Part shown: positions 58,501-61,500 of the stretch, piece after piece
How positions within the stretch are numbered: position 1 is the stretch's first letter
How the letters are laid out: every line of letters begins with the position of its first letter
Origin: Sipunculus nudus
Lineage: Eukaryota; Annelida; Sipuncula; Golfingiida; Sipunculidae
Direction of reading: 5' to 3'
Length of the DNA stretch: 64,000 nt
Assembly: GCA_026874595.1 (NCBI GenBank)
Contig: CM049319.1
Location: 67,669,917-67,733,916 of the forward strand
Notes under the pieces: model-generated
What the model was told of the DNA's origin: nothing
The model's input: only the letters and a program-made list of their open reading frames with translations
Database searches by the model: none
Translations under genes and position numbers: made by a program

Positions 58501-61500
58501 ATTCTCATCAAAATTCACGCATATTTAATGAGGTCAGAGGTCACCAGATACACTACAGGTGTTTTATGCACGTTTGCCTGTGCTCTTGTTACCTTTAAGG
58601 TCAGCTGCAGCAGAGTGCTGTGACCCATGAGTCCCTTGTTTTATTATTGTAATCATGAATTTGTGGATTATCTTGACCCAAGAAAACCATGAAAATAAAA
58701 TCCCAACTGATATTTCTTAACCTACAGAATCTAGATTTTAGCTCAGAGTTGTACCACATATGTTAGAAAAAGGCCATAATGGTATGTTCAGTTTCTGAGT
58801 ATTATTTCATTGTGACCTCCTACCTTGCCCAGTTTTGCACTAAGTAAATTTAAGACACTTTGAGCCTCTTGGTTGGAATGACAGACTACATTTATCAGTT
58901 TGGATTCTAAGCAGAGCACAGACCTCAGATGTTCTTATGTTTTGCATTTATATTTTCAATATCACTATGATTATTGATTTATAAAAGTTTATAAGCTCAG
59001 CTGGGTTACAGTTATCTGAACTATGATATTCTATTTTTGGCCTGGACATGTGGTAAAAAGCTTTAATCTCTTTTCTGACGACCTTGGTTTGACACCCAGC
59101 ATTGCTGTGAGTATGACTCCGTAGGCACTTGCATTTGGCTGGTAAGCCTAACTGGAGTCTTGATACAAGCAGTATGGAGGAATGCATTGCAGTGGTTTTC
59201 CATTATGTTGCATTCAACAGCCCATTATCTTAACATGAGACTATGAATGAATTAACACAAATGAACACATGTGAACTCACAACCAAAACTGAAACTCTAT
59301 CTCTTTGGTAACAGTAATGAGTCCTTTGAATTTCCTGTATTGCGTACAAGTTGGCTGCCGTCCAGTTACCCACGCATGCCATGCTTGTATTCATGCTGTC
59401 AGAAATGAAAAAAAAATATGCAGAGAGATTTACCAACATGCTGACTTGAAACAGAATTTTCTTCCCTCATGATTGGTGTTGTTAGAAAGTATACTAAGAA
59501 AACTAATTTTTTATGTCAAATGACAGTGTAGTTGAAGGCCACGAGGCGTCATCAGAAATGATGAAAAAAATTGCATCCTCATAGAGCCTTTAAAGTGCGT
59601 TCCTCGCTGAAGGATGTAACGGCACTAGTCATCAACTCTCTATTGTCAGAAGGCCTAAATAGGGCAACATCCAGCATGGCTTTGAGAGTTGGGTGTAGTT
59701 AACCGCTCAAGGCTGGTGGGTTTATCTCTGTTTCTTCTCTGTCTTAAGACTACCTAACCCTACTGTCTGAGATACGGAGTATGTATAACATTAGTTATTG
59801 TAACTGTTCATATGATCTGTCTAAAAAAAGTATATATATTTCACTAAATTGATGGCTATTTGCCTACTGTACATACATTTATGCCCTATGCACACATAAT
59901 CATAATGCTAGAAATTTAATATTTTACAGGACTTCAGGCTTTTTCTCTCCTGTTTGTATTTGGAACATGTTTTTTCCAGCAAGAAATAACTCCTATAATT
60001 AATAAAATCATTAATTGCCCTGGTTAATTATAAGTCATTTGCACCTTCCAGTTGGGAGGGACCATGTCCATTTGTTTTTGCGTGCTGAGATGACCTCTTT
60101 CTAGTTTCAAGTAGATTGTCATGGCCATGGCCCACTTGTTTTTACTATGGTTGATTTATAAGTACATTGTGAATGGACAATGTTGTGTCACTTACAAGCA
60201 TTACATGAATTCTTAGTCATAATAAATAATCACTATGTAAGATGTATTTTAAATTTTTTTGTTAATTATAATTTATTTTAGCCTACTCTTTGGACCAAAG
60301 TATTCAAGCATGAACTGGACTTTGGTCACTACCAAGAGGCATACTCGGCTATCACAAGTAACCCTGACCACGGAAGGTAATTATTAAATTATAAATACCT
60401 GCACCTTTATGTCACAAGCACCACTGAACATGTGAGTACTGAGATATCACAAGTAACTTTGTACATGGAATGGAAGTAAATCATATATATGTACTGAAAT
60501 TTCACAAGTAATCTTTAACATGAAATGTAAGTAAAGGATAGATTTGCACTGAGATTTCACAAATAACCTTGAACTTGAAATGTTATTAAAGGATAGATCT
60601 GTACTGAGATTTACAAATAATCTTGAACATGGAATGTAAGCAAAGGATAGATCTGCACTGATATTTCACAAGGAACTATGAACATTAAATGTTAGATAAA
60701 GAGTATAGAGAACATCTTCACACATTTTCCAGTCATTCAAAATTTGAATAAAGTTAGGGGAAGCAGTTCGTAAAAAAAATTATAACCAATGTGAATGTTC
60801 CCTGTCCTTCCTCTGAGTCTTATTCTTACTTCATATGGCTTTACAAGATACAAGATTTATTCCATACCATTTATATTAGGTGCCGTGACTGCTTGCGCCA
60901 GCTGGTTGTGGTATTGTGTGAACAGAACCAGTTGGAAATGTTGGTCAAATTCCCATATGTTGACCTGCAGGATGAGGTGAGTGAATAACATTCCAGTTTA
61001 TTAAGAAAATTGAAATTCCATTTTGGATTTTGTAAAGTCAACGAGAAATCCATTTGCTCCCAGATATGTTTTCCAACTCAACTGACTGAAAGTCATCTGT
61101 GCTTTAGCACCTCTCATACCCCTCAGGCTTCAGCCCATTTACAGGATACTGATCATTGGACCTAGAAACCTCTAACTTAAAATCTGGGAAGGTCCTTTGA
61201 AAAAATCTCCTTGAAAACCTGAAATAAGGTCAGTTTGACCTATCTTCTCTGAGTTGTTTGGCGTGCTTGAGCACCCTAGAATGCTCTTTGTTGTTGTAAT
61301 CCCAATCATGTGACTTCAAGGGTTCTTTATAAAGGGTTCGTCCTCAACCTGAACATCAACCTGATGGATATTATGAATGACTTAACCAGATCCTTGAAAC
61401 CTGGGAAAATGTTTTTTTTAGCTTGGCTGACTGAAAGTCAACTGAGGTATTGGAATGGTGCATTTTGTGTCCTGCCATACCATAGCACAAATCATAACCA

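Follow-up and report, generated by a model that had tools for sequence, protein, structure and literature searches.

Can the end of a coding exon, together with its splice donor, be multiplied into the following intron, and which of the resulting donors would be used? This question is raised by the NUP160 gene of Sipunculus nudus, which lies in the 64,000 nucleotides that we analysed (G000:C14:67669917-67733916, hereafter the window), part of a 1.43 Gb genome. The initial annotation of this DNA had described tandem copies of the end of exon 21 and its donor in the adjacent intron and had suggested that donors are hot spots for tandem duplication. The array behind exon 21 is, with high probability, a splice-border minisatellite ("mirage"), that is, a tandem duplication that was later amplified in the intron; the hot-spot idea did not hold.

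The NUP160 locus and its array

The three joined exon peptides that include exon 60282-60376 match Pfam PF23354 (TPR_NUP160_120_M; E 1.1e-46) and also NUP160 chains in the PDB. In a six-frame family search of the genome, six exons of the PF23354 domain were found in order within the window and one beyond it. Exon 60282-60376 was among the exons recovered, and no second NUP160 copy of it was found by this search. An extra partial match to the NUP160 middle domain, just above the cut-off (27.6 versus 27.2 bits), lies outside the NUP160 locus at G000:C16:63311508-63311594. Joining 60376 to 60880 yields an in-frame protein whose spacing equals that of vertebrate NUP160 (IPDSSRQLDCLRQ). Judged by reading frame and protein spacing, the upstream donor at 60377 is probably the one that is normally used.

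The coordinates of all features are compiled in Table 1. Border copy and array make up 330 nt (60377-60706) of the 503-nt intron. Of the five to six degenerate copies initially described, five are full units of about 55 bp each (u2 to u6, 60437-60706), and the sixth, u1, is truncated and weak: its nhmmer match has an E value of 1.4 and ranks tenth in the window scan, and its alignment score was equalled 17 times among 3000 shuffles and 40 times among 4953 segments of the window. The copy that straddles the border (copy E) is 56-60% identical to u2-u6, which are 65-89% identical among themselves.

Table 1 Positions of the exons, introns and arrays discussed. A slash marks the splice border; positions refer to the window unless a locus is named.
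Feature	Position	Strand	Evidence or remark
NUP160 exon (exon 15 in the initial numbering)	30513..30646	+	Pfam PF23345 NUP160_helical, below cut-off
22-bp array, 3 kb, first base exactly at exon-15 donor	30647..33662	+	87 GTGAGT words, sense strand
NUP160 coding exon (exon 21 in the initial numbering), end AAG/GTAATT	60282..60376	+	ORF 60282-60380
Intron, 503 nt	60377..60879	+	donor GT 60377-60378, acceptor AG 60878-60879
Copy E, across the exon-intron border (35 exonic and 24 intronic nt)	60342..60400	+	alignment, profile, identity scans
u1, truncated copy; CAT/GTGAGT at 60432, u1/u2 junction	60401..60436	+	weak nhmmer match 60409-60432
u2, full copy; donor-position GT replaced by GG	60437..60491	+	profile, unit alignment
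u3, full copy; decoy AAT/GTAAGT at 60527	60492..60546	+	profile, U1 pairing, unit alignment
u4, full copy; weak AAT/GTTATT	60547..60601	+	profile, U1 pairing, unit alignment
u5, full copy; decoy AAT/GTAAGC at 60636	60602..60655	+	profile, U1 pairing, unit alignment
u6, final full copy and the most divergent of the five; weak AAT/GTTAGA	60656..60706	+	profile, U1 pairing, unit alignment
Donor-side array, 52 bp x 15.2 (TRF)	L066 1323-2096 (G000:C5:45123800-45126400)		starts inside kinesin exon encoding SSRSHAVFNIIMTQ
Acceptor-side array, 61 bp x 8.6, 32 exonic nt	L045 679-1205		gene-strand coordinates (reverse complement)
Acceptor-side array, 72 bp x 9.0, 26 exonic nt	L053 686-1328		gene-strand coordinates (reverse complement)
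Acceptor-side array, 60 bp x 4.2, about 11 exonic nt	L048		acceptor read by eye
Array, 41 bp x 2.9, reaches acceptor only	L059		acceptor read by eye

Donor words in the copies

A GT is present at the aligned donor position in four of the five full copies (u3-u6), with a good match to U1 in u3 only; a second good donor word of the array is found at 60432. Splice-site words within the copies, by which mirages are recognised, are thus present. The calculated U1 duplex energies (kcal/mol) are -6.6 (real donor), -7.0 (60432), -7.0 (60527) and -4.3 (60636); only the words at 60432 (CAT/GTGAGT) and 60527 (AAT/GTAAGT) match the real donor in their pairing with U1. The earlier claim that some copies have a stronger donor is therefore true by a narrow margin for these two, but the remaining copies are weaker. 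Of the three decoy positions initially named, 60432 is exact, but 60528 and 60637 are each one base off, the GTs being at 60527 and 60636. That decoy use would truncate the protein was predicted correctly: reading through the real donor leads at once into an in-frame TAA (60378-60380) and, therefore, any use of a decoy truncates the protein.

It is tempting to speculate that such decoys are functional, in that they hold U1 and thereby bring about regulated intron retention, truncated isoforms or premature polyadenylation. Two decoys with a U1 pairing on a par with that of the real donor, and the immediate stop after any decoy use, would be in line with this. Strong donor words are also denser in 60341-60706 than in the unmasked window (8.2 versus 2.4 per kb), but the former value is based on three words, one of which is the real donor. 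However, the good donor has been lost in u2, u4 and u6 and weakened in u5, and u3 to u6 have a T instead of the G at -1. Moreover, the mirages of lancelets were reported without a disturbance of splicing in the account cited (PMC3087553). We therefore regard functional decoys as unlikely; most likely, the array is neutral and arose as a by-product of a genome rich in minisatellites.

Homology across the border and its direction

A profile built from u2-u6 only was searched against the 64 kb on both strands. Its best match outside the units is the exon end with its donor (60350-60382; E 6.6e-4), and the next match reaches an E value of only 0.032. When the last 35 nt of the exon were compared with four units (u5, which has a one-base gap there, was omitted), the summed identity was 93/140; the best of 127,044 other positions gave 86. 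The local alignment that crosses the border (60342-60397) had a score that was equalled by none of 3000 dinucleotide shuffles and none of 4949 random window segments, and the score of its exon part alone was equalled by one of 3000 shuffles and six of 4957 segments. The intron part of copy E is not significant on its own (925/3000 shuffles and 876/4948 segments equalled its score). Anchored at the donor, its mean score was equalled by 5/5000 mononucleotide shuffles and 6/324 GTAA-anchored window segments, and its best score by 100/5000 and 28/324, respectively. The tandem units of the exon-21 array thus span the exon-intron border, as the units of mirages do. The comparison of units and exon with shuffled controls, which had been proposed as a check, gave scores above chance over the exon part and the border-crossing alignment. 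The earlier reading that the exon end and its donor were copied into the intron is hereby confirmed, as is the similarity across the border, but the part of the exon that matches is about 35 nt long, not 25.

Could an A+T-rich minisatellite simply lie beside an exon end that happens to resemble it? The units are indeed A+T-rich, the intron half is not significant by itself and whole units share only the modest identity with the exon copy given above. However, the exon end surpasses every other position over 35 nt, and the profile, searched over both strands of the 64 kb, has its best match beyond the array not just anywhere but directly next to it, in the same orientation and spanning the donor. 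A chance resemblance is therefore very improbable. A dispersed repeat or transposon was also rejected: within the limits of a search that skipped simple repeats and common words, no other copies of the array were found, its sole match in 1.43 Gb being the array itself. Nor does the locus represent an intron gained by tandem duplication; the array lies inside one intron and read-through stops at once.

The direction of copying can be read from the protein. The end of the exon encodes AY.AI.SNPD, which is common to a distant NUP160 chain, 9sob_R (AYCAIISNPD), matched at only 43 bits and presumably of plant origin. Since these residues are shared over such a distance, the exon end is older than the array and, therefore, the array was copied from the exon. 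The sequence thus supports an amplification of a coding piece plus donor from exon 21 into the intron. That the units are closer to each other than to the exon is expected if the array grew after it was seeded. The reverse, in which an array unit took the place of the exon end or donor, finds a possible parallel at exon 15, where the donor but not the exon sequence is within the array, but is very improbable and was rejected for exon 21, whose end encodes conserved residues.

At exon 15, the exon (30513-30646) matches Pfam PF23345 (NUP160_helical) with E 3.5e-5 and 23.6 bits, below the cut-off of 27.5, and its peptide has no match in the PDB. This exon had been regarded as a second case of an array seeded by a donor. 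The array does begin exactly at the donor, but an exon-derived part was not found in its units: the last 12 nt of the exon agree with the 12 nt preceding 69 units in a mean of 4.9/12 and a maximum of 5 positions. The donor now in use there may have been supplied by an array unit. Elsewhere in the window, the arrays at 9464-10104 are rich in strong donor words on the sense strand (17 per kb), whereas the opposite strand has none, and the first of these arrays (9464-9846) has a 34-bp unit containing CAG/GTATAC. This first array was rejected as a border case, as it starts about 140 nt past the likely exon end at 9322 (judged by eye).

Based on these data, the mirage at exon 21 would have started with a short tandem duplication that took in the last ~35 nt of the NUP160 exon, the donor and ~20 nt of the intron. 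Slippage or unequal exchange would then have raised the intronic copies to about six. As long as splicing takes place at the upstream donor, every copy would be removed with the intron; the copies could evolve freely for this reason, whereas the exon copy would be held by protein constraint. The NUP160 array is an ordinary, decayed mirage.

Border arrays in other genes

Similar arrays at splice borders are present in kinesin genes of the same genome, and these are cleaner than the NUP160 array. In L066, the units repeat the last ~49 nt of the exon plus the donor GGG/GTAAGT; identity to the exon copy is 74-93% in the remaining units. The stretch has 11 GTAAGT words and nine exact GGGTAAGT words, the real donor being included in both counts. 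On the acceptor side, the exon is preceded by about nine copies of the intron end, the AG and the first 32 (L045) or 26 (L053) exonic nt. Two further loci are of a different kind: L014 has a 38-bp tandem pair that starts at intron position +7 and contains neither donor nor exon part, and L022 (1084-1513) has a 17-bp acceptor-like array (TTCTACAGACC) that ends about 25 nt before the likely kinesin acceptor.

Are borders preferred sites of such arrays? For the survey, 103 of the 126 kinesin matches were combined with ten NUP160 exons; of the 113 exons, 61 had no donor above the score threshold and were set aside. This left 52 donors, six of them from NUP160 and including the two behind the original finding. 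A simple rule then assigned an acceptor to 49 of these exons; at L048 and L059 the acceptor was read again by eye. TRF arrays (score at least 100) were found in or within 10 nt of 3/52 donors and 4/49 acceptors, in total 7/101 borders. They were commoner at random flanking points (1179/8709, 13.5%); these lay between 200 nt and 2.5 kb from a sampled exon, and some may fall in neighbouring exons. The binomial chance of seven or fewer border matches is 0.029, a rough value since the points are not independent. The exon-21 array is not among the three donor matches, because TRF does not extend it into the exon. Without NUP160, two of 46 donors remain (L014 and L066), L014 being counted although its pair contains no donor. 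In a self-similarity test (p 0.01), 6/52 donors and 5/49 acceptors were positive versus 21/187 mid-intron controls; with exon-only segments the counts were 2/52, 3/49 and 20/187, respectively. Hence, the view that donors are hot spots for tandem duplication is not supported in the kinesin and NUP160 sample, in which donors and acceptors behave alike.

Border-spanning repeats are a kind already known from lancelets, to which the NUP160 array adds a case. The amphioxus mirages described in the cited reports, in Adh3, the globins BflGb6 and BflGb9, TnC and PGBD5, are minisatellite-like copies of exon-intron borders, many with AG/GT signals, on the donor or the acceptor side, with units of 10-160 bp and, in BflGb6, 81-100% identity between units; the data given there suggest that regular splicing is undisturbed (PMC3087553; PMC3902484). 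The NUP160 array likewise copies an exon-intron border with its splice words, and its 55-bp unit is within the reported range. In contrast to BflGb6, its copies are more diverged, both from the exon and from each other, and it is known from genomic DNA, whereas splicing data are reported for the amphioxus mirages. Internal tandem repeats at exon-intron boundaries are also described for human genes in segmental duplications, and the NUP160 array resembles them as a minisatellite expansion at such a border; those human repeats, as reported, occur in recent paralogs, are supported by transcripts and come with novel introns, whereas at NUP160 no second exon copy was found and no new intron was formed (PMC2812944). 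The border duplications reported from potato (PMC4974935) and Drosophila (PMC2891723) belong to the same theme, a tandem duplication that crosses a splice border or holds a proto-splice site. Unlike these, the NUP160 copies lengthened an existing intron.

Taken with the kinesin cases, the NUP160 array suggests that minisatellites across splice borders may be common outside the lancelet genes described so far. The farther-reaching idea that they pervade a second animal genome and are no oddity of lancelets, based on their presence at about 7% of the sampled borders, donors and acceptors included, is held tentatively and with somewhat more doubt than belief. If true, such genes would be natural tests of how the spliceosome chooses among many equal sites, and border minisatellites would continually provide material for intron growth and perhaps for intron gain. 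L066, with exon end and donor in series, would be suited to asking whether order, exon length or context sets the choice of donor. Among other genes of this genome, a myosin exon peptide scored highest with eight squid and scallop myosins, ahead of vertebrate Myosin-6 by 0.7 to 2.9 bits, and a haemocyanin family of molluscs gave no match, either here or in the controls. A separate observation was made at G000:C2:44849337-44852248, where four consecutive matches to one myosin-head stretch (about positions 109-153) occur, with a 2288-aa open frame recorded for two of them; these are possibly alternative exons or an array.
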